Positions 8,148 to 56,583 of a stretch of 64,000 bases of DNA are shown in pieces. Position 1 is the stretch's first letter, and each line of letters begins with the position of its first letter. Position numbers and translations under genes: made by a program. The DNA is from Burkholderiales bacterium (GTDB lineage: Bacteria; Pseudomonadota; Gammaproteobacteria; Burkholderiales; SG8-41): contig JALHRQ010000011.1 in assembly GCA_022841375.1 (NCBI GenBank), positions 1 to 64,000 on the forward strand. The letters run 5' to 3'. The notes below the pieces were generated by a model that saw only the letters and a program-made list of their open reading frames with translations, was not told the origin of the DNA and ran no database searches.

Positions 8148-9131
8148 ATGAGCGCAGTCCGGAACAAAGCAATACTCGGGGTATTCATTGCGCTGGCGGC
8201 AGCGCCGGCATGGTCACAGAGCAGCACGGCCGCGGCTTTTCCCACGAAACCCATCCGCTTGGTTGTGCCGACGGCACCGGGCGGCGGCGTGGACACCATG
8301 GCGCGACTGGTCGGACAAGCCCTCACCACGGCCTGGGGTCAACAAGTCATTGTCGACAACCGCGGCGGCGCATCCGGCATCATCGGCGCCGAAATCGTCG
8401 CCCGCGCGCCGGCGGATGGACACACTCTGCTGGTCACACCGACCACCTTCAGCAGCAACGTCAGCCTGTTCAAAAAGCTGCCCTATGATTCGCGCCGCGA
8501 TTTCATTCCTGTGACCCTGATCTCGAAGGAACCGAACATCATGACGGTGCATCCTTCACTGCCGGCCAAAACCGTCAGTGAGTTCGTCACCCTTGCCAAG
8601 CACAAGCCTGGAGAAATCGCCTTCGGCTTCGGCGGAGTCGGTAGCACAGCAAGCCTCACTGGAGAATTGTTCCGGATGAGAACCGGCATCACGCTAACCG
8701 GCGTTTCCTTCAAGGGAAACGGACCGGCAGTCACGGCACTGAGCGGCGGCGAAGTGCAGTTGATGTTCGTCGGCCTGCCGCCGACGCTGCCAATGATCAA
8801 GGCCGGCCGTCTGAAGCCGCTGGCCGTCACTTCGCAGGAACGCTCGCCGATACTGCCGCAAGTTCCGACCATGGCTGAAGCAGGCGTTGCCGATTTTGAT
8901 GTCACCAACTGGGTTGGCGTGATGTCACCGGCCGGCACACCGGGATCCGTAGTGCAGAAAATCAACACCGAACTGGCTAAAATCCTGGCCAGCCCGGCCA
9001 TGAAAGAGCGCTTCCAGTTTCACGGGATTACGCCCAACGGCAGCACGCCGGAAGAATTCAGGAAATTCCTGGATGCCGAAATCGAACGCTGGGGCCAGGT
9101 CGTCAAGGCCGCCGGACTGCAGGCTAATTAA
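8148..9131 (+). CDS. Bug/TctC-type TTT solute-binding protein 1
   Basis: A 327-residue periplasmic solute-binding protein of the Bug family (TctC of the tripartite tricarboxylate transporter). A signal peptide occupies about residues 1-26 with the cleavage-like APAWSQ. The mature protein begins with the family motif [19 protein letters not shown], followed by [18 protein letters not shown] and [10 protein letters not shown], the two loops that bind the carboxylate. The ATG is set by a strong GGAGGA. No TctA or TctB gene lies in the window, so it is an orphan. Its operon partners (OsmC-like, thiol-dioxygenase-like, rhodanese) suggest a sulfur-containing carboxylate as ligand, which is inference. 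Confidence 0.93.
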
Positions 9132-11498: not shown

Positions 11499-12446
11499 TT
11501 ATTCCCTGATGCCGGCATCACGAATCAGCCTGCCCCACTTCGCCATATCCGCCTGAATGATCGCAGCGAATTCTTCCGGTGAAGTCGACATCGCATCGGT
11601 GCCCGCCGCCACCAGTTTTTCCCTGATATCGGCGCGGGTCATCACCTTCGCCACTTCGGCGTTGATCTGACGAATAATGTTGTCCGGCGTGCGCGCGGGC
11701 GCCAGCATGCCGTTGAGCGACACCGATTCGTAACCGGGCAGCGCATCGGCCAGCAACGGCAATCCCGGCGCCAGTGCAGTGGGTTTCAGGCTGGTCACCG
11801 CCAGCGCACGCAGCTTGCCGGCCTTGATGTATGGCGTCACTGAACCGGCGGTCGGGAACATCAATTCCACTTCGCCGCTGAGGATGCCGATCAGTGAACC
11901 GCCGGTGCCCTTGTAGGCCACGCGCACGATGTTGAGCTTGCCCATGGACTTGAACAGTTCCGCGGCGAGATGCGGCGCTGCGCCGAGCGAACCTGCGGCG
12001 TAATTGATTTCGCCGGGCCGCGATCGGGCCAGCGTGATCAATTCACGCGCCGATTTCACCGGCAGCGACGGATGCACCACCATGACATTGGGCGAACTGG
12101 CGACCAGCGTGATCGGCGCAAAGTCTTTGACCGGATCGTAAGGCGTGCTCGCTCGGATGAACGGCGACAGCCACACCGCGCTGCCGTAAAGCAGCAGCGT
12201 ATAACCGTCGGCCGGCGCACGTGCCACCAGTTCTGCAGCAACGGTGCCACGATTGTCGATCACTACCGGATGTCCGAGCGCGGGACGAATTTCCTGCGCG
12301 ATCAAGCGCGCGACGATGTCGTTGGCGCTGCCCGGCGCCACAGTAACAATGCGTACCGGTTTGACCGGATACGACTGGGCGCAGGCCATCCCTGAACTGA
12401 GCAAGCTGAGCAGTACTGCCGGCAGCCATTGTTGCCATCGGTTCAT
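11499..12446 (-). CDS. Bug/TctC-type TTT solute-binding protein 2
   Basis: A 315-residue periplasmic binding protein. The signal peptide spans about residues 1-24 (MNRWQQWLPAVLLSLLSSG then ACAQ). The mature start SYPVKPVRIVTVAPGSANDI has the family's first ligand loop in variant form (APGSAND in place of PPGGxxD), and HPVVIDNRG and RAPADGYTLL follow. The chosen ATG has GGAGGAG just upstream; an alternative start ten codons earlier lacks this. It lies 88 bases downstream of an aldehyde dehydrogenase gene on the same strand and may share its transcript. No TctA/TctB partner is present. Confidence 0.92.
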   Translation of the reverse strand: MNRWQQWLPAVLLSLLSSGMACAQSYPVKPVRIVTVAPGSANDIVARLIAQEIRPALGHPVVIDNRGTVAAELVARAPADGYTLLLYGSAVWLSPFIRASTPYDPVKDFAPITLVASSPNVMVVHPSLPVKSARELITLARSRPGEINYAAGSLGAAPHLAAELFKSMGKLNIVRVAYKGTGGSLIGILSGEVELMFPTAGSVTPYIKAGKLRALAVTSLKPTALAPGLPLLADALPGYESVSLNGMLAPARTPDNIIRQINAEVAKVMTRADIREKLVAAGTDAMSTSPEEFAAIIQADMAKWGRLIRDAGIRE

Positions 12447-12534
12447 CGCAGCTCCTCCACCACGCACCAGACGCAAACGCCGCCGTGCTACGCCCGGCGG
12501 ATATTTTCTAACTAATTGTTTTTATTATTACTTT

Positions 12535-18924: not shown

Positions 18925-19902
18925 TTATTCGGCTTTGGCGCCGGAAGCTTTGACCACCTTGGCCCATTTCTGGATTTCTTCGCGTACGAAACGGCCGAAT
19001 TCCTCCGGTGAATTCGGCGCGACGTCAGCACCCAGTGCGACCAGGCGTTTGTTGACCTCGGGCATCCGCAGTACGGTCCCGATCTCGGCATTCAGCCGTG
19101 AAATGATTGCGGCGGGCGTGCGCGACGGCGCAAAGAAGCCGTACCAGGAAGTCACCTCGTAGCCGGGAACACCGGATTCGGCGACCGTCGGCAAATCGGG
19201 CAGTTGCGCGGAACGCTTCAAGCCGGTCTGGGCGATGGCCCGCAGGCGACCCGCTTGCACCATCGGCAAGGCCGGCGGCAATCCCAGGGAAGCCAACTCG
19301 ATATGCCCTGCCATGACGTCGGTCACCACCGGGCCCGCACCCTTATACGGCACATGCACGATCTTCAAATTGTTATTGACGTTGAGCAATTCGATCGCCA
19401 GATGATTCGGCGAACCGGTATTGGCACCGAAATTGAGCTTCCCGGGCCGGGACTTGGCCAGGGCGATCAGGTCTTTCATCGATTTCACCGGCAGCGACGG
19501 ATGAACCACGATGACACTGGGCCCGGTGATGCCCTGCGTAATCGCCACCAGGTCGCGGGCCATGTCGTACTGCAGATCCTTGTAGAGGCTCATGCCGATG
19601 GCCTGCGGAATGCCGGCTGACAACAGGGTGTAGCCGTCGGCCGGCGACTTGGCGACAAATTCAGAGCCGATGTGCCCGCCACCGCCGGTGCGATTCTCAA
19701 CCAGCACCGCCCTGCCCAGCTTGGCTGCCAGATCGTTGCTGACGAAGCGCGCAAGGATGTCGGCGGTGCCGCCGGTCGCCAGAGGCACGACGATTTTCAC
19801 CGGGCGGTTCGGATAATCCTGCGCTATAGCGCTTTGAGCGCCGGCTATTGCCACCACCGCCACGACGGCTGCAGTGCATTGTTTGACCAGGTGTTTGACC
19901 AT
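18925..19902 (-). CDS. Bug/TctC-type TTT solute-binding protein 3
   Basis: A 325-residue periplasmic binding protein. The signal peptide (about residues 1-28) ends near QSAIAQ. The mature N terminus DYPNRPVKIVVPLATGGTADI carries the first ligand loop, and GRAVLVENRTGGGGHIGSE and KSPADGYTLL follow. The ATG at 19902 is chosen because GGAGAAG lies six bases upstream; a TTG seven codons earlier has no such site. It is flanked by the amidohydrolase (upstream) and RraA-like aldolase (13 bases downstream), so the ligand may be a polycarboxylate or aromatic acid fed into that pathway. Confidence 0.92.
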   Translation of the reverse strand: MVKHLVKQCTAAVVAVVAIAGAQSAIAQDYPNRPVKIVVPLATGGTADILARFVSNDLAAKLGRAVLVENRTGGGGHIGSEFVAKSPADGYTLLSAGIPQAIGMSLYKDLQYDMARDLVAITQGITGPSVIVVHPSLPVKSMKDLIALAKSRPGKLNFGANTGSPNHLAIELLNVNNNLKIVHVPYKGAGPVVTDVMAGHIELASLGLPPALPMVQAGRLRAIAQTGLKRSAQLPDLPTVAESGVPGYEVTSWYGFFAPSRTPAAIISRLNAEIGTVLRMPEVNKRLVALGADVAPNSPEEFGRFVREEIQKWAKVVKASGAKAE

Positions 19903-19947
19903 GCTCTTCTCCAGAATCTTCAAGTTAAGGTCACGGGGGCAATCGAA

Positions 19948-21089: not shown

Positions 21090-22850
21090 ATGGCCGCCCG
21101 ACGACAAATCAAGTTCACCATCCACCGCGCACCCAAGGCACCGGCGATCGACGTGCCGGCGGCATTGCGCGAAGGACTGGCATTGCTGCAAGCGGGCAAA
21201 CTTGCGAAAGCAAAAAATTGTTTTCGCAGCGTGCTCGAAGCCGAACCCCGCCAGTTCGATGCGCTGCACCTGCTCGGGGTGATTGCCACGCGCTCCGGAC
21301 ATCCGGCCGAAGCGGACAAACTGATCAGCCAGGCCATCGCCATCAAACCGGCGGAGGCCGCGGCGTACGCCAATCGCGGACTGTCACGGCATGCGGCCAA
21401 ACAATACGAAGGTGCGCTGGCCGACTTTGATCGCGCCATCGCCCTCAAACCAGCCGAGGCCGAAAGCCATTATTGCCAGGGCAACGTGCTGTTTGACCTG
21501 AAACGTTACAGCCGCGCGCTGGCCAGTTACGACCGTGCCCTCGCGTTGCAGCCCGGCCACGCGGCAGCACACTGCAATCACGGCAGCGCCTTAAAAATGC
21601 TCAAGCGCCACCAGGCGGCACTGGCCAGCTTCGACCGTGCGCTCGCCCTCCGCCCTGACTTTGCCGATGCCCGCGGCAATCGCGCCAACGTGCTGCTGAG
21701 CCTGGGCCGTCCACACGAAGCCATCGCCGAATACGATCGCGCCATCGCCATCAATCCCCGGCACGCCGAATCACACAGCAACCGCGGCAACGCGCTGCAG
21801 CAGCTCGGCCGTTACGACGAAGCGCTCGCCAGCTACAACCATGCGTTGGCCATCCGCCCCGCGTACACACTCGCCCGCGCCAACCGCAGCAATCTGTTCC
21901 TGCTCACCGGCCGCTTCGCACAGGGCTGGCAGGATTTCGAGGCGCGCTGGGACAAATGGAGCCGCGCCCCGGCACAGCAGTCACTGCTGCCCGCCCGTTT
22001 CACCAAGCCGCAATGGGATGGCCGCCCCGGCACCGCCACGCTGCTGGTCTGGCCGGAACAGGGCATTGGCGACCAGATCCTTTATGCCTCGATGTTCAAC
22101 GAAGCGCGCGCACGCGCCGGACGGCTGATTCTCGCCGCCGATAAACGCCTGCAACCGCTGCTCGCACGATCGTTTCCGGACTGCGAAGTCACCACCATCG
22201 CGACCGCGCTGCGCCAGAACCGCTATGACGTACAGCTGCCGATGGGCAGCCTCGGTCAGCATTTCCGCGCCAGCGCCGACGATTTTCCGCGTCCGCCCAA
22301 AGCCTTTCTGCTGGCCGACACCCAACGCAGCGCCGCGCTGCGCAAAACCATCACCCCGGCACGCAAACGCATCTGCGGCCTGTCGTGGCGCAGCACCAAT
22401 GCGGAATTCGGTGAACACAAAAGCATGGCGCTGCCCGCCCTGCACCCCTTGCTGCAGCTGCCCGGTCTGCGTTTCGTCGATCTGCAGTACGGCGACACCG
22501 CCGCCGATCGTGCTGCTGCCGCCAGTGCTGGCACTGAAATCCTTCACCTTGATGCCGTCGACACCACCGAGGATATCGACAGCCTCGCCGCACTGATCAA
22601 CGCCTGCGATGTCATCGTCACCATCAGCAACACCACCGCACATCTGGCCGGTGCGCTGGGGAAGAAGGTATTCCTGATGCTGCCCCATGCCGCCGGACGG
22701 CTGTGGTACTGGCAGACCGACCGCGACGACACGCTGTGGTACCCGGGCGTGCGCGTCTTTCGCCAGCGCCGGCCCGGTGACTGGGCTGAAGTGGTTGAAC
22801 GGGTGTGTGCCGCAATCGCCCAGCCCTCACCAAGTCGGCGGCGCCGCTGA
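21090..22850 (+). CDS. TPR protein with GT9-like glycosyltransferase domain 1
   Basis: A 586-residue cytoplasmic protein with no signal peptide. A short basic N terminus (MAARRQIKFTIHRAPK) is followed by about seven tetratricopeptide repeats at residues 25-270 and a C-terminal domain (about 300-580) resembling the family-9 heptosyltransferase fold. The latter has TLLVWPEQGIGDQILYAS, FVDLQYGDT and VIVTISNTTAHLAGALG, where GT9 enzymes usually read SVDTxxxHLAG. TPR-GT9 proteins are thought to glycosylate protein or cell-envelope acceptors, but the acceptor and donor are unknown. It is the first of three adjacent paralogues, 25 bases before the next. The ribosome-binding site is weak. Confidence 0.83.
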   Translation: MAARRQIKFTIHRAPKAPAIDVPAALREGLALLQAGKLAKAKNCFRSVLEAEPRQFDALHLLGVIATRSGHPAEADKLISQAIAIKPAEAAAYANRGLSRHAAKQYEGALADFDRAIALKPAEAESHYCQGNVLFDLKRYSRALASYDRALALQPGHAAAHCNHGSALKMLKRHQAALASFDRALALRPDFADARGNRANVLLSLGRPHEAIAEYDRAIAINPRHAESHSNRGNALQQLGRYDEALASYNHALAIRPAYTLARANRSNLFLLTGRFAQGWQDFEARWDKWSRAPAQQSLLPARFTKPQWDGRPGTATLLVWPEQGIGDQILYASMFNEARARAGRLILAADKRLQPLLARSFPDCEVTTIATALRQNRYDVQLPMGSLGQHFRASADDFPRPPKAFLLADTQRSAALRKTITPARKRICGLSWRSTNAEFGEHKSMALPALHPLLQLPGLRFVDLQYGDTAADRAAAASAGTEILHLDAVDTTEDIDSLAALINACDVIVTISNTTAHLAGALGKKVFLMLPHAAGRLWYWQTDRDDTLWYPGVRVFRQRRPGDWAEVVERVCAAIAQPSPSRRRR

Positions 22851-22875
22851 TTGCCGCAAGGCGGCACAAAAAATC

Positions 22876-25800
22876 ATGGCAGTACGAAAAAAAATCAACT
22901 ATGCCGTCTCCCGCAAAGCCAAGCCGGGTCGCACCGTCGTCACCGGCAATGTCAGCGCCGATGCGCCGCCACCCACACACCCTGATGTTGATTTCCGTCG
23001 CGGCAATGAACGGTTCGACCGCCGCCAATACCCGGAAGCCCTGGCCTGTTACGACCGTGTAATCGCATTGGTGCCCGGCCACTTCCCCGCGATCATCAAC
23101 CGCGGCGCCACTTACGCGCAGTCCGGGGAGTACCGCACCGCGCTGGCCGATTTCGATCGCGCCCTGACGCTGCAGCCGGACAACGCCGACATTCATTGCA
23201 TGCGCGCCGGCGCGCTGCGCGCGCTGAATCAATACGAAGCCATGATCGCCGCCTACGACGACGCGGTCCGCCTGCGCCCGGATTTCGCCCACGCGCGTTT
23301 CCGCCGCGGCGTATGCAAACTGCTGATCGGCCGCTACACCGAAGGCTGGAAGGACTACGCCGCCCGTTGGGATGAATGGGCTCAGTTCAAAACTCCGCCC
23401 GGGCAGGCGCAGACGCGGCTGGGTCTCAACAGTTTCAGCAAACCACTGTGGAATGGATCCCACACGCAGGACACCGTGCTGATCTGGGCGGAACAGGGGC
23501 CGGGCGACCAGATCCTGTTTGCCTCGATGCTGAACGAAGCCGCTGCGCGGTCCGGTGGCATCATCCTTGCGCTGGAAAAGCGCCTGCACCCGCTGTTCGC
23601 GCGATCATTCCCGAATGTGGCCATCACCACGATCTCGCGGGCCGCAAAACAAGGTGGTTACCAGCAGCAGATGCCGATGGGCGATCTCGGCGCGCTGTTC
23701 CGCAACAGCGCCGATGATTTCCTCAGTCAGCGCAAGCCTTATCTGCTTGCGGAAGCCAGCAGCAGCGCCGCACTGCGCAAAACCATTGCTCCGGCGGGCC
23801 AACGCATCATCGGCCTGTCCTGGCTCAGTACCAACAAGGAATCCGGCGCGCTGAAAAGCATGCCGCTTGCAGCGCTGAAGCCGCTGCTGGAAACGCCCGG
23901 GCTGCAATTTGTCGACCTGCAGTATGGCGACACCAGCGCCGAACGCGCCGCGCTGCGCAACATTACCGGCATCGAGCTTGTGCATCTCGATGAAATCGAC
24001 AATCAAAATGACATCGACGGCCTCGCCGCGCTGATCAGCGCCTGCGATGTCATCGTCACCATCAGCAACACCACGGCGCATCTGGCCGGCGCACTGGGCA
24101 AGGAAGTGCTGCTGGTGCTGCCCCATGCCGCCGGCCATTTCTGGTACTGGCAAATCGACCGCGACGACACCTTGTGGTACGACAAGGTCCGCGTCTTCCG
24201 CCAGCCCCGTGCCGGCGACTGGCCGGCAGTCATCCAGCGCGTGAAAGCTGCACTGGGCTCAGCCGGGCCGCAACCAAAATTACGCACCGGCGCGACCGGC
24301 ACACGCGTCATCTCACACACCATCACGCACAAACCCAAGACGCCTGCCGCAAGCACTGCCAAAGTCGCGATCGACAATAGTGTGACCTTGCTGCAACAAG
24401 GTGCAATCGAACCGGCGCGTCAGCAGCTTGAGGATCTGATCCAGGCCAAACCGCAAAACGCGGAAGCGCTGCAGCTGCTGGGCAGCATCATGCTGATCGA
24501 AGGCAGGCCCGCGGAAGCAGCCGTGTTTCTGCAAAGCCGGCTTGCCGTCACCCCCGCCGTCGCCGAGGCCAGCCTCGGCCTGGTGCTGCACCGGCTGAAA
24601 CGCGACCGTGAAGCGCTGGTGCAATTCGAAAAAGCAGCCGCGATCGATCCCGATTACGCCGAGGCGCATTCCAATTGCGGCGTGATCCTCAACGAAATGG
24701 GGCGTTTTGCCGAGGCAGTTGCCGCCTATGACCGCGCCATTGCCATCAAACCCGGTTTCGCCGACGCGCACTGCAACCGCGGTGTCGCGCTGAACAACCT
24801 CAACCGCCATGCCGATGCCGTCATCAGTTATGACCGCGCCATCGCAATCAAGCCCGGCTACGCCGCGGCCCACTGGAACCGCAGCCTCGCGCTGCTGACC
24901 AGCGGCGAATTCGGCCGCGGCTGGGAACAATATGGATGGCGCTGGAAAAAACGCGAGATCACTTCCGACGATCTGAGCAAGCGGCCATTCTGGTACGGCA
25001 CCCGGCAGCGCCGCGGCAAACATGACCTGCCGCACGGCGTGCCCTGCGCCTTTGATCCGCCGTTCTGGGACGGCACGCCGAACAAGGATTCGCTGCTGGT
25101 CTGGCCTGAACAGGGTGTGGGTGAACAGGTGCTCTACAGCTCGATGCTCAACGAGGCACGCGCGCGCGTCAGCAAACTGACACTGATCCTCCAGCAAAAA
25201 CTGCACCCGCTGTTCCAGCGCGCCTTTCCTGAGTGCCGCATCGTCACCTATGAAACTGCGGTCGCCGAAAACCATTTCGACTGGCAGATTCCGCTGGGAG
25301 AACTCGGACGGTTTTTCCGGCCGTCCATTGACGACTTCCTGCGCCATCGCAAGCCGTACCTGAAAGCCGACCGCGCGCGCAGCGCAGCCCTGCGCCAGGA
25401 GATCGCGCCGAAGCGCCAGCGCATCGTCGGCCTGTCGTGGTACAGCCGCAACGCCGAATTCGGCGCCCGGAAAACGCTGTCACTCGATCAGCTCGCGCCG
25501 CTGCTGACCTTGCCCGATCTGCGTTTTGTCGATCTGCAATACGGCGACACCGCCACGGCGCGCACCGCCATCCGCCGCAACACCGGCGTTGAAATCACCC
25601 GCGTGGCATCGGTCGATAACTGGGAAGACGTTGACGGCTTTGCCGCGCTGGTCAACGCCTGCGACCTGATCGTCACCATCAGCAACACCACGGCGCACAT
25701 TGCCGGCGCCCTCGGCAAGGATGTGCTGCTGATGCTGCCGCACTCGCAGGGCCGCTTCTGGTACTGGCAGGCCGATCGTGACGACTCGCTGTTTTATCCC

Positions 25801-25902
25801 GGCATGCAGCTCTACCGCCAACACGCCAGCGGCGACTGGTCACAGGTCATCAATGATGTATGTACTGCCGTCGCACAAAAGTTAAAATCGGGCAAACCCT
25901 GA
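22876..25902 (+). CDS. Double-module TPR/GT9-like glycosyltransferase protein
   Basis: A 1008-residue protein made of two complete copies of the TPR plus GT9-like module found singly in both neighbours. Module 1 has TPRs at about 35-165 and a transferase domain at 175-458; module 2 has TPRs at about 495-690 and a transferase domain at 728-1005. Each transferase half keeps the WPEQG, VDLQYGDT and TISNTTAH signatures. Module 2 has an extra segment (about 690-725, around DDLSKRPFWYGT) before its first transferase strand. The N terminus MAVRKKINYAVSRKAK again matches the short basic tag of its paralogues. A longer frame starting at 22687 overlaps the previous gene and is not used. No signal peptide is present. 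Confidence 0.83.
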   Translation: MAVRKKINYAVSRKAKPGRTVVTGNVSADAPPPTHPDVDFRRGNERFDRRQYPEALACYDRVIALVPGHFPAIINRGATYAQSGEYRTALADFDRALTLQPDNADIHCMRAGALRALNQYEAMIAAYDDAVRLRPDFAHARFRRGVCKLLIGRYTEGWKDYAARWDEWAQFKTPPGQAQTRLGLNSFSKPLWNGSHTQDTVLIWAEQGPGDQILFASMLNEAAARSGGIILALEKRLHPLFARSFPNVAITTISRAAKQGGYQQQMPMGDLGALFRNSADDFLSQRKPYLLAEASSSAALRKTIAPAGQRIIGLSWLSTNKESGALKSMPLAALKPLLETPGLQFVDLQYGDTSAERAALRNITGIELVHLDEIDNQNDIDGLAALISACDVIVTISNTTAHLAGALGKEVLLVLPHAAGHFWYWQIDRDDTLWYDKVRVFRQPRAGDWPAVIQRVKAALGSAGPQPKLRTGATGTRVISHTITHKPKTPAASTAKVAIDNSVTLLQQGAIEPARQQLEDLIQAKPQNAEALQLLGSIMLIEGRPAEAAVFLQSRLAVTPAVAEASLGLVLHRLKRDREALVQFEKAAAIDPDYAEAHSNCGVILNEMGRFAEAVAAYDRAIAIKPGFADAHCNRGVALNNLNRHADAVISYDRAIAIKPGYAAAHWNRSLALLTSGEFGRGWEQYGWRWKKREITSDDLSKRPFWYGTRQRRGKHDLPHGVPCAFDPPFWDGTPNKDSLLVWPEQGVGEQVLYSSMLNEARARVSKLTLILQQKLHPLFQRAFPECRIVTYETAVAENHFDWQIPLGELGRFFRPSIDDFLRHRKPYLKADRARSAALRQEIAPKRQRIVGLSWYSRNAEFGARKTLSLDQLAPLLTLPDLRFVDLQYGDTATARTAIRRNTGVEITRVASVDNWEDVDGFAALVNACDLIVTISNTTAHIAGALGKDVLLMLPHSQGRFWYWQADRDDSLFYPGMQLYRQHASGDWSQVINDVCTAVAQKLKSGKP

Positions 25903-25919
25903 GTCCGCCACAACCACCC

Positions 25920-27641
25920 ATGCCCGCCAAACGAACCATCACATTCAACATCACCCGCAATCCCAAGGTCACCACCAAGGCCAACACCCAGACCGCATTG
26001 CGCAAGGCCGCCGGCCATCTGCAGCGCGGTGAACATGAAGCGGCGCGACAGATCGCATTGAATGTGGTCCATGCCCATCCCCAGCATTTCGATGCCCTGC
26101 ACATGCTCGGGGTCATCGCCGGACAAAACCAGCAGCCGGCCGAAGCCATTGCACTGATCGGCAAGGCCCTCGCACTCAGACCTGACGCCCAGGCCTATTG
26201 CAACCGCGCCGCCGCGCGACTGGTGCTGCAACACCACGCCAAAGCCGTCGCCGACTGCGAACTGGCGATTGCACTCAAACCCGAATTGGCGGTGGCGCAT
26301 TGCGTGCGCGGTCACGCGCTGGCCGCGCTGAAACGCCATCAGGAAGCGTTCGCCAGTTACGACCGTGCCGTCGAACTCAACCCGGAATACGCCGAAGCCT
26401 GGCATCACCGCGGCCACGCCTGCCTCAATCTCGGCCTGGTGCAAAACGCCGTCGCCAGCTACGACCGCGCGCTGGCGATCAATCCCGACAATCAGGGCGG
26501 TCTCGCCAACCAGAGCCTGTGTCTTCTGCTGACCGGCAACTTCAAACGCGGCTGGGCCACTTACGGCGCACGCTGGAAGGCGCGGGTGCAAGGCTTCGTG
26601 CCGCTGCCGGGCTCCGGCGCGGAACTGTGGACACCGGAGAATTTCGGCAAACCGCTGTGGGATGGCCAGCCGACTCCGGGCACGCTGCTGATCTGGCCCG
26701 AACAGGGCATCGGTGACCAGATCCTGTTCGCCTCATTGCTGCCGCAAGTGCAGCCGCTGGCGGGCAAAGTCATCCTCGCACTGGAAGAACGCCTGCACCC
26801 GCTGTTCGCTCGCTCGTTCCCGTGGTGCGAAATCACCACGCTCAAAGCCGCCCGCGAGGCGGGACACTACGACGTGCAGATTCCACTCGGCGACCTCGGT
26901 GGTCTGTTCCGCAACACCGTCACCGACTTCCTGCAACACCGCAATGCTTATCTCAAATCGGACCCTGCGCGCCGTGCCCGTCTGCGCCGCGACATTGCAC
27001 CCGCTGCCGGCCAGAGCGTATGCGGCGTTTCCTGGCACAGCATTCATCCCGAATTTGGTGCGGACAAAAGCATGCACCTCGCGGAACTGCCGCCGCTGTT
27101 CGAAACCCCGGGCTGGCGATTTGTCGATCTGCAATACGGCGACACTGCCGCCGAACGCGCTGCCCTTAAAACCGAAACCGGCCTCGACATCGTTCATCTC
27201 GACGCCATCGACATGGTTCAGGACATCGACGGCCTCGCCGCGCTGATCGACGCCTGCGACGTCATCGTCACCATCAGCAACACCACCGCGCATATTGCCG
27301 GCGCGCTGGGCAAGAAAGTGTGGCTGATGCTGCCGCTCAACGCAGCACGCTTCTGGTACTGGCAGACCGAACGTGAAGATTCGTTGTGGTATCCGCACAT
27401 GCACATTGTCCGCCAGCACAGCGCCGGCGACTGGTACGACGTCATCAATCAAGTCCGCAAAGCGCTGACCGCGCCGGTAATGGAAATGGCCGCCGAAAAG
27501 GTGCCGGCCCAAAAAACCGCAGTCCGGAAAACCTCTGCCCCCAAAAAAACGCCGGCGGCGAAGACCAAAGCGGCACCGAAAAAAACACCGGCTGCAAAAA
27601 AACCGCCCGCTGCGAAGAAAAAGAAGGCTGCCGCCAAATAA
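25920..27641 (+). CDS. TPR protein with GT9-like domain and Lys/Ala/Pro-rich tail
   Basis: A 573-residue paralogue of the two preceding proteins. It has the basic N-terminal tag (MPAKRTITFNITRNPK), TPRs at about 25-205, a GT9-like transferase domain at about 243-517 with WPEQGIGDQILFAS and TISNTTAHIAGALG, and a C-terminal tail of about 55 residues made almost wholly of Lys, Ala, Pro and Thr. That tail resembles histone-H1-like bacterial tails and could bind nucleic acid, membrane or acidic glycans; its role is unknown. The gene begins 17 bases after the double-module gene and is followed by a clear terminator, which closes the three-gene operon. Confidence 0.83.
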   Translation: MPAKRTITFNITRNPKVTTKANTQTALRKAAGHLQRGEHEAARQIALNVVHAHPQHFDALHMLGVIAGQNQQPAEAIALIGKALALRPDAQAYCNRAAARLVLQHHAKAVADCELAIALKPELAVAHCVRGHALAALKRHQEAFASYDRAVELNPEYAEAWHHRGHACLNLGLVQNAVASYDRALAINPDNQGGLANQSLCLLLTGNFKRGWATYGARWKARVQGFVPLPGSGAELWTPENFGKPLWDGQPTPGTLLIWPEQGIGDQILFASLLPQVQPLAGKVILALEERLHPLFARSFPWCEITTLKAAREAGHYDVQIPLGDLGGLFRNTVTDFLQHRNAYLKSDPARRARLRRDIAPAAGQSVCGVSWHSIHPEFGADKSMHLAELPPLFETPGWRFVDLQYGDTAAERAALKTETGLDIVHLDAIDMVQDIDGLAALIDACDVIVTISNTTAHIAGALGKKVWLMLPLNAARFWYWQTEREDSLWYPHMHIVRQHSAGDWYDVINQVRKALTAPVMEMAAEKVPAQKTAVRKTSAPKKTPAAKTKAAPKKTPAAKKPPAAKKKKAAAK

Positions 27642-27700: not shown

Positions 27701-28231
27701 TCAGCCCGGGCGCTTAATCAGCAGCGGCACGATGGCATCGACCGCGATACGCGCCTTTTCACGCAGCACCGCGTCGTCGTTGTTGGCGATGGGATGTGCG
27801 ATCACCGCGAAGGGGTAGTCCTTCAGGCCGTTGACAGCCGCCACTGCCTTTGCGGTAACCACGAAGCGGTCGGTCATGATCGCCACCGCCGGTATGCCCA
27901 GCCGTTCCGCTTCTATCGCGTCGTGCAGACTGCACGACGAGCAACTCCCTCAGTCGCCGGTGGCAGCGAGGATCGCGTCCGCGCCGCTCATCTCCATCAG
28001 CATCGGCTGCGGAACCGGCCGTGAAGCGTCGGGCTTGCGGCGGCGGATGCACTCGCGCACGCGATATTCCTTTTTGAGGATTTCCTCAATGAAGTCGAAC
28101 AATCTTGCGGTGCCGATCTTGGCGTTGTCGATCATGCCGACCACCGCGCCATCGAGCGAGGCCAGCGGCGGCGCAAGGCGCAGTGCTTCACCGTGCGCAG
28201 TTTGGGTGGGGTCGAGGACTCTGATTGTCAT
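27701..28231 (-). CDS. UGSC-family selenoprotein with in-frame UGA (Sec94)
   Basis: A 176-residue protein read as one frame through a TGA at 27950-27952. The frame begins MTIRVLDPTQTAHGEA at 28231 with AAGGA eight bases upstream. It runs to SGADAILAATGD, meets TGA, and continues without interruption as GSCSSCSLHDAIEAERLG to a TAA-type end at 27701. The resulting motif U-G-S-C (Sec94 to Cys97) is the hallmark of the UGSC family of selenoproteins and Cys homologues, presumed redox enzymes. A hairpin with bacterial SECIS geometry follows the UGA. Conventional gene finding would split this into two short ORFs. It is cytoplasmic (no signal peptide). It lies 25 bases downstream of a conserved unknown gene in a likely operon. 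The exact reaction is unknown. Confidence 0.88.
27919..27939 (-). promoter_or_regulatory. Bacterial SECIS hairpin of the UGSC selenoprotein
   Basis: On the minus strand, ten bases after the UGA, a perfect 9-bp stem (CGTCGTGCA with TGCACGACG) closes a GTC loop. The loop G lies about 20 bases from the UGA, within the 16-37 base window described for bacterial SECIS elements, and it is the first loop base as the SelB-binding rule requires. The hairpin is inside the coding sequence, as in other bacterial selenoprotein genes. Confidence 0.82.
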
Positions 28232-29300: not shown

Positions 29301-29330
29301 CAACGGATTATCGCGCAAAGCCGCCGGGCA

Positions 29331-29825
29331 TCAGGCCGCGGTCGCGCCGACTGCTTCGATCAGCTGTTCCAACGCCGCCGCGGCAAAGGCGTACATATTG
29401 GTCACGCGATCCGCATTGCCGGTCTCCAGCGTTTTCGAACGCTCGGAACCCGGCCCTACCACCGCAAAACACGCATGACCCGGCGGATACCCGTAACGGC
29501 TGCCGGTCGGACCCGTCGCACCGGTCTCGCTCAAGGACCAGTCCGTCTGCATGCGTTCGCGGATCCGCCTTGCCTTGAGCCGTGCATAGGCTTCGGTCGA
29601 CGGTGTGATGCCGCGCATCTCCTCATCGCTGATGCCGAGAATGGTGCGGCGCATGTCGTAGGTGTAAATCACCACGCCGCCGCGCACGCAGGCCGATGCG
29701 CCGGGCACCGCGAGCAGCGCCGCGGTAATCAGACCGCCCGCCGAGGATTCGGCGACGACGATGGTCTGTTTGCGCGCGGTCAGCAGCTTCACAGCGTGTT
29801 CGGCTTGCGGCAGAAGTTGTTTCAT
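29331..29825 (-). CDS. CinA C-terminal-domain / PncC-like amidohydrolase
   Basis: A 164-residue single-domain CinA family protein. KQTIVVAESSAGGLITAALLAVPGAS contains the conserved E-S-x-x-G-G segment with the nucleophilic serine, and GATGPTGSRYGYPPGHACFAVVGP is the second conserved block (GxxGP). PncC enzymes deamidate nicotinamide mononucleotide to nicotinate mononucleotide in NAD recycling. Here it sits between a D-2-hydroxyacid dehydrogenase and the UGSC partner gene, so it may have been recruited to another amide or pyridine-nucleotide step. AAGGA precedes the ATG. Confidence 0.82.
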   Translation of the reverse strand: MKQLLPQAEHAVKLLTARKQTIVVAESSAGGLITAALLAVPGASACVRGGVVIYTYDMRRTILGISDEEMRGITPSTEAYARLKARRIRERMQTDWSLSETGATGPTGSRYGYPPGHACFAVVGPGSERSKTLETGNADRVTNMYAFAAAALEQLIEAVGATAA

Positions 29826-29860: not shown

Positions 29861-30814
29861 TTAATACCCGCGCGCCCGATCAACACCGGTGGCAAAGGGT
29901 TCGCCGGCGAGGAAACGGCGCGCGTTATCGGCAAAAATCTCGGCCACAATGGCGCCGCGCCCGGCAGAGCCGCCGCCGATATGCGGCAGCACGAGAATGT
30001 TTTCCGTGGTCCAGAACGGATCGGTCGCTGGCAGCGGTTCTTCGCGGAACACGTCAAGCACGGCGCCGGCGATGGTTTTGTTTTTCACCGCCGCAATCAG
30101 GTCGGCATCGACGATCAGCGGGCCGCGGCCGAAATTGAGCAGCCAGGCCGTCGGTTTCATCGCCTTCAGTCGCGCGGCGTTGATGAAGTTTTCGGTGTCC
30201 GGCGTCACCGGCATCAGCAGCACGACAAAGTCCGACTGGCGCAACACGTCATCGGCCTCATCACCGGCATACACTTCCTCCACCCCCTCCACCGGCTCGG
30301 GTTCGCGTTTGGTGCCGATCACACGCATGCCCAGCGCCGATGCCTTGAGCGCGAGTTCCTGGCCGATCGCGCCGAGTCCGAGAATGCCCAGCGTCTGCCC
30401 GGCAAGCAATTTCGACATGCGGCGATTCCACTGACTCTGTTTCTGGTCGAGTGCCGCCACCATATACGGCTTGGTCAGATGGAACAGCGCGGCGAGAATG
30501 TTTTCCGACATCGTGTGGCGGTGTGACCCGCGCGCGCAGCACAGCGCCACGTCATCACGCAATCCGGGCGCACCCAGCCATGCTTCAACACCGGCAGTCA
30601 TTGCCTGAATCCAGCGCAGCTTCGGCATGCGCGCGAGCAGCTTGCCGTGTTTCCACCCGGCCAGAATTTCCACCCGCGGAATCAGATCATCGGGCGGCGT
30701 GTCCTCCCGTTTGACGTGATGCAATTCAAAGCGATCGGCCAACCCCGCGTCGGCGAGCGCGGTTTTGTACGCCTCAAAATCATCCAGCCACAACAGACAG
30801 ACAGGCTTGCTCAT
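29861..30814 (-). CDS. D-2-hydroxyacid dehydrogenase (NAD-binding)
   Basis: A 317-residue D-isomer-specific 2-hydroxyacid dehydrogenase, close to the hydroxypyruvate/glyoxylate reductase subgroup. The Rossmann motif LGILGLGAIGQELALKASALG is central. The catalytic Arg is in WLLNFGRGPLIVD, the Glu in DVFREEPLP and the His in NILVLPHIGGGSAG. The enzyme interconverts a 2-oxoacid and a D-2-hydroxyacid with NAD(P)H. GAGGA precedes the ATG. It is the first gene of the strand run that leads to CinA-like, the unknown partner and the UGSC selenoprotein. Confidence 0.9.
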   Translation of the reverse strand: MSKPVCLLWLDDFEAYKTALADAGLADRFELHHVKREDTPPDDLIPRVEILAGWKHGKLLARMPKLRWIQAMTAGVEAWLGAPGLRDDVALCCARGSHRHTMSENILAALFHLTKPYMVAALDQKQSQWNRRMSKLLAGQTLGILGLGAIGQELALKASALGMRVIGTKREPEPVEGVEEVYAGDEADDVLRQSDFVVLLMPVTPDTENFINAARLKAMKPTAWLLNFGRGPLIVDADLIAAVKNKTIAGAVLDVFREEPLPATDPFWTTENILVLPHIGGGSAGRGAIVAEIFADNARRFLAGEPFATGVDRARGY

Positions 30815-31026: not shown

Positions 31027-31815
31027 CTAAGCCGAAGCCCGAACCACCGGACTGCGCAAAATGCCAATGTCCTTCTGCACAATCTCGCACACATCCCCGT
31101 GCTTCAGGTTCGGCTCGGTCGCATCGTCAGTGCCCAGCCAGATCACATCACCCGGATGCAGCGTCATGTACCTGGTGATCTCGGCGATGTAACGCTGCGC
31201 CGAGAACAACATCTTGCTGGTGTTGTAACCGGCCACGCGCTGGCCGTTCATGTGGATCTCGATATCGAGGTTCATCGGATCGAGGCCCGTAGTGATGAAG
31301 GGGCCCATCGGTTTCCACGTGTCGCAGTTTTTCGCGCGCCACAACGTGCGGTCGGATTTCTGCCAGTTGCGTTCACTGACGTCATTGCCCAGCGTGTAAC
31401 CGATGATGCACGACAGCGCATTGGCTTCGGTGAGGTTCTTCGCCGCCTTGCCCACCACCGCCACCAGCTCGCCCTCGAACTGCACCATGTCGGAGGCATC
31501 GGCGGGAATGATCAGCGTTTCATCGGTCGCGCACAGCGCGTTGAAGGAGCGGTAACCGACGTCGGCCTTTTCCGGATACTTGGGCGCAATGCCCTTGCGT
31601 TTGGCGCCCCACTCGATATGCGCGGCATAGTTCAGCCCGGCGCAGTAGAAGTTGCGCGGCTCGCAGGGGATCAGGGTTTTGAGAGCGGACAGCGCATGAA
31701 TGGTGCTGGTGGGGTTATAACTCATGAACGGTGAACCTTCGATCTCAACGACCTGCTTGCCGTCGACAATGCCGAAGAAGGTGCGGGATTGGAGTTGGAA
31801 TCGGCCGAATTTCAT
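31027..31815 (-). CDS. Fumarylacetoacetate hydrolase (FAH) family protein
   Basis: A 262-residue FAH-fold enzyme, a family that includes fumarylpyruvate and acylpyruvate hydrolases, oxaloacetate decarboxylases and ring-cleavage hydratases. The metal-binding core is visible as MVQFEGELVAVVGKAAKNL (Glu-x-Glu), followed by IIGYTLGNDVSERNWQ with the conserved Asp and by KPMGPFITTG. The C terminus has GDVIWLGTDDATEPNLKHGD in place of the common GTPxGVG motif. AAGGA supports the ATG at 31815; the upstream extension to 31872 is less likely. A decayed paralogue lies at about 35228-35384. The substrate is unknown. Confidence 0.88.
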   Translation of the reverse strand: MKFGRFQLQSRTFFGIVDGKQVVEIEGSPFMSYNPTSTIHALSALKTLIPCEPRNFYCAGLNYAAHIEWGAKRKGIAPKYPEKADVGYRSFNALCATDETLIIPADASDMVQFEGELVAVVGKAAKNLTEANALSCIIGYTLGNDVSERNWQKSDRTLWRAKNCDTWKPMGPFITTGLDPMNLDIEIHMNGQRVAGYNTSKMLFSAQRYIAEITRYMTLHPGDVIWLGTDDATEPNLKHGDVCEIVQKDIGILRSPVVRASA

Positions 31816-31936
31816 GGATCCATCCTTTGTCTGGTCAACGCTGCGGATGCTATGGTTCCTCAAAGGTCGCAAGGGGCATGGACCTGTTCTTGGAAGCGAT
31901 TGCTGTTCCGAATCATAGCGCCGAACCGCAACAGAG

Positions 31937-46375: not shown

Positions 46376-47380
46376 TTACCGGGATATTTTTTCGGTCTTT
46401 AGACCGATTTCCTTGACGAGCTTCTGGAAGCGGCCAACTTCGTAGGCGAGGTATTTGCTGTATTCATCCGGTGTCTTGCCGACAGGCTCAGCCCCGTCTG
46501 CAAGAAACTTTTCGGTCACGTCAGGCAATCGCACGATTTCATTGATCGCACCATTGAGCTTGTTGACGATGCCTCGGGGTGTTCCGGCAGGTGCCAGCAG
46601 GCCGTACCAGGTCATCACTTCGTAGCCGGGCACGCCGGCCTCGGCAATGGTCGGAACTTCAGGCGCAGCCAACGAACGCTTATTGCTAGTTACTCCCAGC
46701 GCACGAACTCGGTTGTTCCGCCACTGCTGCAGCCCGGCAACAATCGCCGAGAACGTGAATTGCACCTGACCCGCTACGACGCCAGTCAGTGCTGGCGCAC
46801 CGCCGCGAAAAGGCACGTGTGACACATCGATCTGAGTCATCGTTTTGAACATTTCACCGGCCAGATGGCCGGAACCGCCGTGGCCGCCCGATGAAAAATT
46901 CAGCACACCCGGCTTGGATTTCGCCAGAGCCACCAGATCCTTGACCGTCGCGGTGCCCAGCCCGGGATGCACCACCAGCAAAAACGGCGCTTGTGCAAAC
47001 TGCGCCACCCCCGTGAAATCCTTCACCGAGTCGAACTGCAGATCGTAGAGGCTTGGATTGATTGCGAAACTGCTTGAAACAGCAAGCATGGTGTAGCCGT
47101 CGGCGGCTGCGCGGGCGGTGATCGCACCCGCAATCGAGCCCGCCGCTCCGGCGCGGTTGTCGATGATCACGGACTGGCCCAGCGGTTGTGCAAGTTTCTG
47201 GCCGATGAGCCGGGCCATGATGTCGGTGGCGCCACCGGCGGCAAGGCCCACAACAAAGCGCAGCGGCTTGTTCGGGTAATCCGCCGGAACGCCGGCGGCT
47301 TTTGCGGGTACTTGCGCGCCCGCTGCCAGCGACATTGCCAGTCCGGTTGCTGCTGCAATCCCTTTGACTGTTGTGTTCAT
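46376..47380 (-). CDS. Bug/TctC-type TTT solute-binding protein 5
   Basis: A 334-residue periplasmic binding protein with a signal peptide of about 22 residues (ATGLAMSLAAGAQ). The mature protein carries DYPNKPLRFVVGLAAGGATDI, QSVIIDNRAGAAGSIAGA and RAAADGYTML. GAGGAG seven bases before the ATG fixes the start. It lies between the LeuD-like subunit (upstream, 23 bases) and MmgE/PrpD (downstream, 30 bases), inside the tricarboxylate-type cluster, so a tricarboxylate ligand is a reasonable guess. Confidence 0.93.
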   Translation of the reverse strand: MNTTVKGIAAATGLAMSLAAGAQVPAKAAGVPADYPNKPLRFVVGLAAGGATDIMARLIGQKLAQPLGQSVIIDNRAGAAGSIAGAITARAAADGYTMLAVSSSFAINPSLYDLQFDSVKDFTGVAQFAQAPFLLVVHPGLGTATVKDLVALAKSKPGVLNFSSGGHGGSGHLAGEMFKTMTQIDVSHVPFRGGAPALTGVVAGQVQFTFSAIVAGLQQWRNNRVRALGVTSNKRSLAAPEVPTIAEAGVPGYEVMTWYGLLAPAGTPRGIVNKLNGAINEIVRLPDVTEKFLADGAEPVGKTPDEYSKYLAYEVGRFQKLVKEIGLKTEKISR

Positions 47381-49216: not shown

Positions 49217-50212
49217 TCAGTCGATGCGCGCACCGGACGTCTTTACAACGGCCGCCCACTTGCTGATTTCGCTCTGCAGGAACACCCGCATTTCCTCGGG
49301 CGTGCCGATCATCTGGTTGGCGCCGCTGCTTTCGTATTGGGCGCGGATATCCGGCAGCGCCGCAGCCTGCCTGATGCTTGCGTTGAGCTTGCGGATCACG
49401 TCATCGGGCGTGCGCGTCGGCGTCACCAGACCGAACCAGTTGATGGCTTCATATCCCGGATATCCCGATTCGGCGAGGGTAGGCACCTCGGGCAACGAAC
49501 GCACCCGTTCCCGCGACGTGACGGCCAACGCACGCAAACGTCCACTCTGGATATGCGGCCGCAAGGGCGTCACGTTGGCGAACAGGACCGGCACCAGGCC
49601 GCTGATGGCGTCGGGAATCGCAAAAGCACTGCCCTTGTAGGGCACGTGCACCATGTCGACACCAGCCCGGGTCTTGAACAACTCAGTCGCCAGATGGTTC
49701 ACGGCCCCGTTGCCGGTCGAACCGTAACTCACTTGCCCCGGACGTTTCTTCAGGAATGCAACGAACTCGCTCACTGATTTTGCCGGTAGTGACGGATGGA
49801 TTGTGGCGCACAGTGCTTCGGATGCAATCAGCGTAATCGGGGCAAAATCCGCAGCAAGATCATAGCCCAGCTTGCGATAAAGACTGGGCGCGACCGCATG
49901 CGGTGCAGAAACCATGAACAGGCTGTAACCGTCCGCAGACGCTTTCGCGGCAATTTCAGCACCTATGTTGCCGCCGGCGCCGGGGCGGTTTTCAATCAGG
50001 AACTGCTGACCGACACTGTCGGTCAGCTTTTGCGCTAGCGCACGGATCAACTGGTCACTGGCCCCGCCGGGAGCCTGCGCAACGATGATGCGCACAGGCC
50101 TGGACGGATAAACCTGGGCAAACGACTGGGCGGTAACCAGCAGCAATGCCAGTGCCATCCCGATGTTCTTCAAACGGCATATCGGCATGCAACCATCGGT
50201 CAACGGCTTCAT
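49217..50212 (-). CDS. Bug/TctC-type TTT solute-binding protein 6
   Basis: A 331-residue periplasmic binding protein. The ATG overlaps the stop of the TcuA-like gene (ATGA), so translation is coupled. The signal peptide runs to about residue 33 (IGMALALLLVTAQSFAQ). The mature protein carries YPSRPVRIIVAQAPGGASDQL, QQFLIENRPGAGGNIGAE and KASADGYSLF. It is likely the uptake receptor for the substrate of the adjacent flavoprotein dehydrogenase. As with the other copies, no TctA/TctB gene is present. Confidence 0.93.
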   Translation of the reverse strand: MKPLTDGCMPICRLKNIGMALALLLVTAQSFAQVYPSRPVRIIVAQAPGGASDQLIRALAQKLTDSVGQQFLIENRPGAGGNIGAEIAAKASADGYSLFMVSAPHAVAPSLYRKLGYDLAADFAPITLIASEALCATIHPSLPAKSVSEFVAFLKKRPGQVSYGSTGNGAVNHLATELFKTRAGVDMVHVPYKGSAFAIPDAISGLVPVLFANVTPLRPHIQSGRLRALAVTSRERVRSLPEVPTLAESGYPGYEAINWFGLVTPTRTPDDVIRKLNASIRQAAALPDIRAQYESSGANQMIGTPEEMRVFLQSEISKWAAVVKTSGARID

Positions 50213-55617: not shown

Positions 55618-56583
55618 TCAGTTGGCTTTGATGTTCGCGGTGGTGATGACCTTGCCCCACTTTTCGTAATCGGCCTTGTGATACGCGGCCAATGCAGCGG
55701 GCGTGCCGCCGGAAGGTTCCGCGCCATCCAGCGCAAGGGCTTTTTTGATGTCATCAGTTACCAGCACCTTGTTGGTCGCGGCGTTCATGCGCTCAACCAT
55801 CGGCGCCGGCAATCCGGCCGGGCCATACAAACCCCACCACTGGCTGGATTCGAACCCTTTCAGCGCCGCCTCATCCACGGTCGGCAGTTCCGGCGCCACC
55901 GCGAGACGTTTACCGCTGGTCACCGCAAGCGCCTTCAGGCGGCCGGCGCGCATCTGCCCCGAAACGGTCGGGAATGCGGCAAACAGCACCGAGACATTGC
56001 CGGCAACGGTATCGATCACTGCGGGCGCACCGCCCTTGTACGGCACGTGGAGCATTTTCACGCCGGCGCGCTGTGAAAACAGTTCACCGGTGAGGTGGCT
56101 CAGCGTACCGGCGCCGTTCGAGGCATAGGCCAGCGCGTCGGGCCTGGCCTTGGCAATGGTGATCAGTTCCCTGACGGTTTTCGCCGGCACCGAGGGGTGC
56201 ACGGTGAGCACGTTCGGCGCATCGCCGATTTTGACGATGGGCGTGAAACTTTTCAGTACGTCATACGGCGCCTTGGCGCCGAGGTGCGGATTGATCGACA
56301 GCACGCTCGACGATGCAAACAGCAGGTTGTAGCCATCGGCCGGCGCACGCGCAGCGATCTCGCCGCCGATGATGCCGCCGGCGCCACCACGGTTGTCGAC
56401 AATGATCTGCTGGCCGATCACCGCAGACAGCCGCGTGGTGACATGGCGCGCCACGATGTCGGCGGCGCCGCCGGGCGGGAACGGCACGATCACGCGCACG
56501 GCTTTGTCGGGGTAGCCCTGGGCCGCGGCAGCGAACGACAGCGTCGCGCCCAGCAGGACCATGAGGGAACGGGATGAAAACAT
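55618..56583 (-). CDS. Bug/TctC-type TTT solute-binding protein 7
   Basis: A 321-residue periplasmic binding protein. The signal peptide is about 22 residues (LMVLLGATLSFAAAAQ). The mature start GYPDKAVRVIVPFPPGGAADI has the classic P-P-G-G loop, and [18 protein letters not shown] and RAPADGYNLL follow. GAGAAAGG precedes the ATG. It heads a minus-strand run with MmgE/PrpD 2, an alpha/beta hydrolase and a cupin. No TctA/TctB gene is present. Confidence 0.94.
   Translation of the reverse strand: MFSSRSLMVLLGATLSFAAAAQGYPDKAVRVIVPFPPGGAADIVARHVTTRLSAVIGQQIIVDNRGGAGGIIGGEIAARAPADGYNLLFASSSVLSINPHLGAKAPYDVLKSFTPIVKIGDAPNVLTVHPSVPAKTVRELITIAKARPDALAYASNGAGTLSHLTGELFSQRAGVKMLHVPYKGGAPAVIDTVAGNVSVLFAAFPTVSGQMRAGRLKALAVTSGKRLAVAPELPTVDEAALKGFESSQWWGLYGPAGLPAPMVERMNAATNKVLVTDDIKKALALDGAEPSGGTPAALAAYHKADYEKWGKVITTANIKAN

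Follow-up and report, generated by a model that had tools for sequence, protein, structure and literature searches.

An amplified UGSC selenoprotein family with a linked partner protein and a possible relation to glycine and D-proline reductases

Results

The UGSC gene and its in-frame TGA

The window, which is the whole 64,000-nucleotide stretch of Burkholderiales DNA analysed here, carries on its minus strand a gene of the UGSC family together with a conserved partner gene and three further open reading frames (Table 1). One TGA is the sole interruption of the UGSC frame, and reading through it yields a protein with selenocysteine (Sec) at position 94 and 82 residues beyond it. The surrounding residues read ATGD-U-G-S-C-S-S-C-S, with the U/C-G-S-C motif occupying positions 94–97. 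PF24696 matches residues 4–171 (E=2.4e-48, 165 bits; curated cut-off 25 bits), while NF041046 matches residues 28–171 with 126.6 bits, barely over its cut-off of 125. At the base composition of the window (61% G+C), 82 open codons past the TGA would arise by chance with P of about 0.08. Openness of the frame alone is therefore not beyond chance, and we regard the readthrough as real because the homology spans both sides of the TGA.

Table 1. Features of the UGSC locus in the window.
Feature	Position	Strand	Basis
UGSC-family selenoprotein gene, 176 residues, Sec94	27701..28231	-	translation with TGA=U; PF24696 and NF041046
In-frame TGA read as selenocysteine	27950..27952	-	recurrence in paralogues, Cys in homologues
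Bacterial SECIS-like hairpin, 8-bp stem, 3-nt G-U-C loop	27920..27938	-	loop starts 19 nt past TGA
Conserved partner protein, 353 aa	28257..29318	-	TTG start at 29318; linkage to UGSC
CinA C-terminal / PncC-like protein	29331..29825	-	PF02464 E=5.2e-39
D-2-hydroxyacid dehydrogenase-like protein	29861..30814	-	PF02826 E=4.8e-53
Fumarylacetoacetate-hydrolase-family protein	31027..31872	-	PF01557 E=2.9e-49

The original prediction had claimed a UGSC selenoprotein with UGA read as Sec and a frame uninterrupted across the TGA over 176 codons. Translation bears out the frame, and both profiles, the recurrence of the TGA and the Cys homologues bear out the family and the decoding. Judged from its sequence, the gene almost certainly encodes a selenocysteine protein of the UGSC family. 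A second C-x-x-C-like pair, also claimed, is present in the window copy (C97-x-x-C100) but does not hold for the family, as position 100 is Cys in only 3 of the 11 paralogues of the source genome and W, G or A in the other eight. Among UGSC hits of three genomes the motif reads U-G-[SGAT]-C at its core; a lone Sec copy departs from it with UGSS. Homologues with Cys in place of Sec, the comparison that the prediction had called for, were found at 24 of 24 loci with a search pattern that required CGSC and thus selected for Cys forms. These loci include haloarchaea, actinobacteria and Sphingomonadales. A natural Cys copy in a relative from the same GTDB family (G034:C18) has CGTS, and in one divergent branch of fused proteins Met or Ala replaces Sec. 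The partner gene, ten further UGSC copies and the thioredoxin reductase link described below all lie outside the interval of the original prediction.

The selenocysteine genes and an adjoining TrxB-like gene

The expectation that selA, selB, selC and selD would be found elsewhere in the genome was confirmed by profile searches of the source assembly (4.08 Mb, 66 contigs, 99% complete). These recovered selA (577 bits, cut-off 268), selB (421.5 bits, cut-off 242), tRNA-Sec (75.9 bits, gathering score 47) and selD (419 bits, cut-off 125), the last with an in-frame TGA of its own as the Sec codon in the motif GGGUGCK. Contig C3 holds, in this order, selA, selB, a 302-aa gene similar to thioredoxin reductase (TrxB-like), a 182-aa ORF that we take to resemble YaeQ, and tRNA-Sec. 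The gene past selB has a CxxC motif (CADC) and scores 223.9 bits against TIGR01292. Since this is under the equivalog cut-off of 343, we call it TrxB-like rather than TrxB. The order selA–selB–TrxB-like is the same in 20 of 20 other genomes fetched from the same GTDB family, which were chosen from complete selB matches and in one of which the TrxB-like gene ends at the contig edge. tRNA-Sec was found in all six of these relatives in which it was sought. Across the source GTDB family, selB is over its cut-off in 66 of 74 genomes.

A SECIS-like hairpin recurs in the Sec copies

The hairpin behind the TGA has a spacing of 19 nt, a 3-nt loop and a stem that fall within the constraints for bacterial SECIS elements quoted in a passage of PMC13188914. 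We compared 83 Sec copies from three genomes, ungapped from the TGA. The stem 15–22/26–33 forms at least 7 of 8 pairs in 49 of them, 48 of these with a G23-U24 loop. Shifted by one, the stem forms at least 5 of 6 pairs in 24 further copies, 22 of which have G-U at 22–23. One or the other register thus accounts for 73 of the 83 copies, and ten fit neither. Two-sided pair changes are found in the first class at 15/33 (G-C to A-T), 16/32 (T-A to A-T) and 21/27 (G-C to C-G), and in the second, shifted class at 19/28 (G-C to T-A).

In the Sec copies, codon choice is specific to the loop. Serine at positions 22–24 is encoded by AGT in 45 of 45 Sec copies, as against 147 of 1475 serine codons in partner genes. 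At the loop codon the 24 Cys homologues have AGC (13), TGC (9) or TCG (2), and the loop G-U occurs in none of them. Fold energies relative to synonymous shuffles gave a mean z of -1.25 for the 83 Sec copies versus 0.04 for the 24 Cys copies (p=2.6e-5, with related sequences in the sets). Taken alone, the window copy has a z of -0.83, and its hairpin is not unusual for its protein sequence. The copy at contig C1 has no hairpin (z +2.41), and RNAalifold returned no structure when run on all 83 Sec copies.

UGSC genes are amplified in the source GTDB family

The source genome contains 11 PF24696 matches including the window copy, all with U-G-S-C and each with exactly one in-frame TGA (11/11). 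UGSC matches occur in 74 of 74 genomes of the source GTDB family, ranging from 1 to at least 40 per genome (two at 40 or more) with a median of 11 and a total of at least 1081. Among the best-scoring rows of this survey, every row listed has one TGA. Full scoring gave 11 matches in the source genome (G000), 58 in G049, 35 in G060 and 21 in G034. A single TGA is the only stop in 11, 51, 30 and 19 of these, respectively, or 111 of 125 when counted by eye. The other 14 comprise six contig-end fragments or split-hit halves, three matches that score under the cut-off, three rows to which a TAG or TAA is added, and two long rows free of stops. The latter are G034:C18, the Cys copy with CGTS, and G049:C76, from the branch that has neither Sec nor Cys. 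A few single-TGA rows are partial and the genomes are drafts with 2–3% estimated contamination, which makes the copy numbers approximate. In the wider class 3 of 229 genomes are UGSC-positive, the source included, and neither of two genomes from another family of the same order has a match. The amplification is thus typical of the source GTDB family.

Seen in one sequence only, a lone in-frame stop could not be told from a sequencing error or from a nonsense mutation in a decaying gene, and the three rows with an additional TAG or TAA, all in G049, would suit such decay. Against this stand the recurrence of exactly one TGA in the matches of the source genome and of the four genomes together, the presence of the Sec machinery in the source genome and the loop-specific codon choice in the hairpin, which together make error or decay scarcely credible.

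Passages of PMC13188914 give the largest bacterial selenoproteomes as 63 genes in a Methylomirabilota MAG and 57 in Olavius algarvensis Delta 1; the passage does not state the family make-up of the 63. A very large selenoproteome is common to these cases and ours, and in G049, 51 matches come from one family. A 2016 table in the section seen of PMC5029168 lists 26 and 33 for the UGSC family, which we read as organisms and genes, whereas the source genome has 11 matches and G049 has 51 with a single TGA.

A partner protein accompanies nearly every UGSC copy

The partner gene of the window ends 25 nt upstream of the UGSC start. Its own start is uncertain, with an ATG six codons inside the TTG. 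In fused UGSC copies the C-terminal domain is a homologue of this protein, which has no clear match in structure comparison. In the source genome there are 13 partner matches, and each of the 11 UGSC copies adjoins one or, in two cases, is fused to it. Of the two extra partners, one on contig C21 is some 1.4 kb away from a UGSC gene already paired with a partner of its own, and the other (C3:156290-157222) has no UGSC match within flanks of 1.5 kb.

Linkage extends well beyond this genome. Of 90 UGSC hits in stretches from three genomes, fragments among them, 89 have a partner fused or within 1.5 kb, the sole exception being G049:C45, which has an extra TAA. The partner is also present at 24 of 24 Cys loci, and the 24 plasmid records with a partner include all 12 records with UGSC. 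Copy numbers of UGSC and partner correlate with r=0.98 over 63 genomes, the 11 genomes with at least 28 partner matches being left out. A fusion of UGSC with a domain named Unknown_1 was described in 2008 (PMC2398784, in the passage seen), and Unknown_1 is likely the same domain as the window partner.

Thioredoxin genes and plasmid carriage

Genes of the thioredoxin system lie next to the pair in several distant hosts. The order is trxB-trxA-partner-UGSC on the Arthrobacter ERGS1:01 plasmid and in a Nocardioidaceae MAG, and partner-UGSC-trxB on the Roseovarius THAF8 plasmid, while on the Variovorax SRS16 plasmid a thioredoxin reductase is two genes from the pair. A tblastn with the Arthrobacter query detects trxB (at least 41% identity) no more than about 2 kb away from the pair in 6 of 32 stretches taken from outside the family, and trxA in three. 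The 32 stretches are the 24 Cys loci plus 8 plasmid stretches, with one place in both sets and the query's own stretch counted. Weaker trxB matches are those of Paracoccus versutus plasmid pBEN (L167, 37%), where the gene is of the sel type, and of L152 in genome G034 (34%).

The plasmid pBEN, conjugative by typing, packs selA, selB and tRNA-Sec into 17 kb together with a Sec-type UGSC gene, the partner and a TrxB-like gene. A search of 72,556 plasmid records with the TrxB-like protein of pBEN gave matches in seven (E<=1e-40), and all seven also carry the partner, 0.4 to 15 kb away. Four of these records are from Neorhizobium. In one that we inspected, the UGSC-like gene is without the Sec/Cys motif and the partner is in pieces; the link between TrxB and partner thus persists there without Sec. 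A second plasmid typed as conjugative, the IncP plasmid p2-T1 of Acidovorax sp. T1, carries a Sec-type UGSC gene (L164 8640-8930) annotated as a short hypothetical protein that ends at the TGA; IS91-like and IS1071-family transposase genes lie at a distance of 3 to 6 kb.

Similarity to GrdB and PrdB

Profile searches show a weak but recurring similarity to the Sec-containing subunits of glycine and D-proline reductase, which may reflect a distant relation. At E<=1, gly_red_sel_B was hit by 11 of 25 members and PrdB by 8 of 25, while any family outside this group was hit by at most 2 of 25. For the window protein the similarity reaches E=6e-4 with one profile; PF07355 gave no match at E<=0.001, and GRDB had no match in the source genome. 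Aligned by hhalign, the families score 32.1, compared with a maximum of 22.1 in 100 column shuffles, and Sec is aligned on Cys. With 109 sequences the hhalign E-value is 3e-4 and the probability 39%, falling to 11% with 25 sequences and 8% with 11. The similarity is confined to about 65–70 residues around the Cys/Sec.

As in GrdB and PrdB, Sec is accompanied by a Cys three residues on and stands 82–90 residues before the C-terminus: 90 residues follow it in PrdB and 86 in GrdB, as given in a passage of PMC3091704, versus 82 here. The conserved UxxCxxC of GrdB/PrdB is present in the window copy, but its third Cys is the residue kept in so few paralogues. Unlike GrdB, UGSC proteins are shorter and lack the N-terminal part, and unlike GrdE and PrdA, the partner is no recognisable pyruvoyl proprotein and matches nothing in Pfam or NCBIfam. 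The predicted UGSC model (pLDDT 90.7) has Rossmann-, flavodoxin- and response-regulator-like structural neighbours, and no thioredoxin fold is among the best 50 matches listed in either structure list. Separately, PrdB-like proteins of about 300 aa with C-P-x-C-H (L172-L178) occur in 7 of 398 genomes of the phylum, six of them over the PF07355 cut-off.

Gene neighbourhood

The CinA C-terminal / PncC-like ORF lies 12 nt upstream of the partner ORF. It and the D-2-hydroxyacid dehydrogenase-like gene perhaps share a transcription unit with the UGSC pair, and the fumarylacetoacetate-hydrolase-family (FAA-hydrolase) gene possibly belongs to the same unit. No match to the CinA/PncC-like gene was found near the other UGSC pairs compared. 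Elsewhere, pairs are neighboured by CoA-transferases, ICL/PEP-mutase, ComA, aconitase X, and adenylosuccinate-lyase-like and FAA-hydrolase families. Together with the 2-hydroxyacid dehydrogenase and FAA-hydrolase genes of the window, these neighbours suggest organic acids as substrates, and the many paralogues suggest that such substrates are many. TctC matches make up 11 of 60 neighbour proteins of UGSC genes. Within the window, the starts of the ORFs at 8148-9131, 11499-12476, 18925-19923, 46376-47380, 49217-50212 and 55618-56583 presumably mark TctC/Bug receptors of tripartite tricarboxylate transporters, about one per 10 kb. Three consecutive large plus-strand ORFs of 586, 1071 and 593 aa occupy 21090-27641 and resemble one another over long stretches when compared by eye. 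Pfam assigns tetratricopeptide repeats to the third, which also has a lysine/alanine-rich tail.

Discussion

The window gene is a member of a described family that has been in print since at least 2008, and it shares with the known UGSC proteins the motif, the length, scores over both profile cut-offs and the fusion with a second domain. Passages on UGSC in the literature, as far as they were available to us, mention neither an amplification nor a thioredoxin reductase link nor a relation to GrdB/PrdB.

We propose that UGSC and its partner form a thioredoxin-recycled selenoenzyme, either of two subunits or fused, that works like glycine and D-proline reductase, a reading to which we give slightly less than an even chance. 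From the linkage, UGSC and the protein encoded upstream of it would be the two parts of one enzyme, in which binding and presenting the substrate would be the task of the partner. The selenolate of Sec, placed at the start of a helix, would attack this substrate and the bond would be broken reductively. Cys97 may then resolve the selenium adduct to a selenenylsulfide, and NADPH would regenerate the enzyme through thioredoxin reductase and thioredoxin. The working principle would be that of GrdB and PrdB; glycine reductase itself is reduced via thioredoxin reductase and thioredoxin (PMC3091704, in the passage seen). In the weakest step of the scheme, the paralogues, each with its own partner, might act on different organic acids that the cell imports. 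More broadly, we hold as a tentative view that UGSC and its partner represent a new thioredoxin-driven selenoenzyme class, distantly related to GrdB/PrdB, which the source GTDB family has expanded to tens of paralogues per genome for a multitude of substrates, with a TrxB-like gene in the Sec operon; most of this set is also present on pBEN.

Several observations weigh against this scheme. The resolving Cys is not absolute, as the UGSS Sec copy and the CGTS Cys copy demonstrate, and trxB is near the pair in only those 6 of 32 stretches outside the family. Thioredoxin reductase and thioredoxin genes nearby would recycle a peroxidase or disulfide reductase equally well. On a rival view, UGSC would serve general redox defence as a selenol peroxidase or a disulfide reductase, with the partner as scaffold or target, as implied by a published guess of a thioredoxin-like fold; a title in a reference list reports peroxidase activity of GrdB. 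We consider this rather unlikely. The structural neighbours of the model are Rossmann- and flavodoxin-like rather than thioredoxins among the matches listed, although a thioredoxin fold stays conceivable, and copy numbers from 11 to over 50, counted in full in the source genome and G049 (11 and 58 matches) and with a separate partner for almost every match, suit substrate diversity better than defence.

A non-redox function draws on the fused branch that has Met or Ala for Sec (Sporomusa termitida plasmid L168 8308-10032, Vibrio europaeus plasmid L169 8344-10029, G049:C76 and G049:C80) and must therefore act by other means. It keeps both domains without Sec and Cys, and in Sporomusa termitida and Vibrio europaeus its genes are near aconitase X and DUF126. 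The pair might thus be a lyase, isomerase or hydratase of organic-acid catabolism, in which Sec or Cys serves as nucleophile or base with no net redox change and thioredoxin merely keeps it reduced; the CoA-transferase, ICL/PEP-mutase, adenylosuccinate-lyase-like and FAA-hydrolase neighbours would suit such a role. Nearly all Sec copies, however, keep U-G-x-C including the Cys after Sec, which a non-redox base does not need, and we judge this explanation improbable. Binding of a metal or metalloid by Sec and Cys, for instance in organometal handling, is suggested for other Sec families in a passage of PMC13188914. For UGSC it seems very improbable: the 25 most frequent families listed for two sets of neighbour proteins (60 proteins with 85 families, 127 with 137) include none for metal resistance or transport, which is weak evidence.

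For the thioredoxin-recycled reductase that we favour, the linked partner, the dedicated TrxB-like gene and the possible tie to glycine and proline reductases make the function of UGSC proteins testable. Given the amplification, a single bacterial family may have tens of selenoenzymes working in parallel. Routine gene prediction would truncate such genes at the TGA, which is what the Acidovorax T1 plasmid record shows. In Geodermatophilaceae, a tRNA-Sec with anticodon CUA was reported together with UGSC-motif selenoproteins, i.e. Sec at UAG (PMC5330540, in the passage seen). Two further arrangements were seen: in Conexibacter sp. CPCC 206217 (L063) two adjacent UGSC genes, one with CGAC, are flanked by two partner genes, and in a Myxococcales MAG (L061) a Cys-type UGSC gene and its partner lie a few kb from selB and tRNA-Sec.
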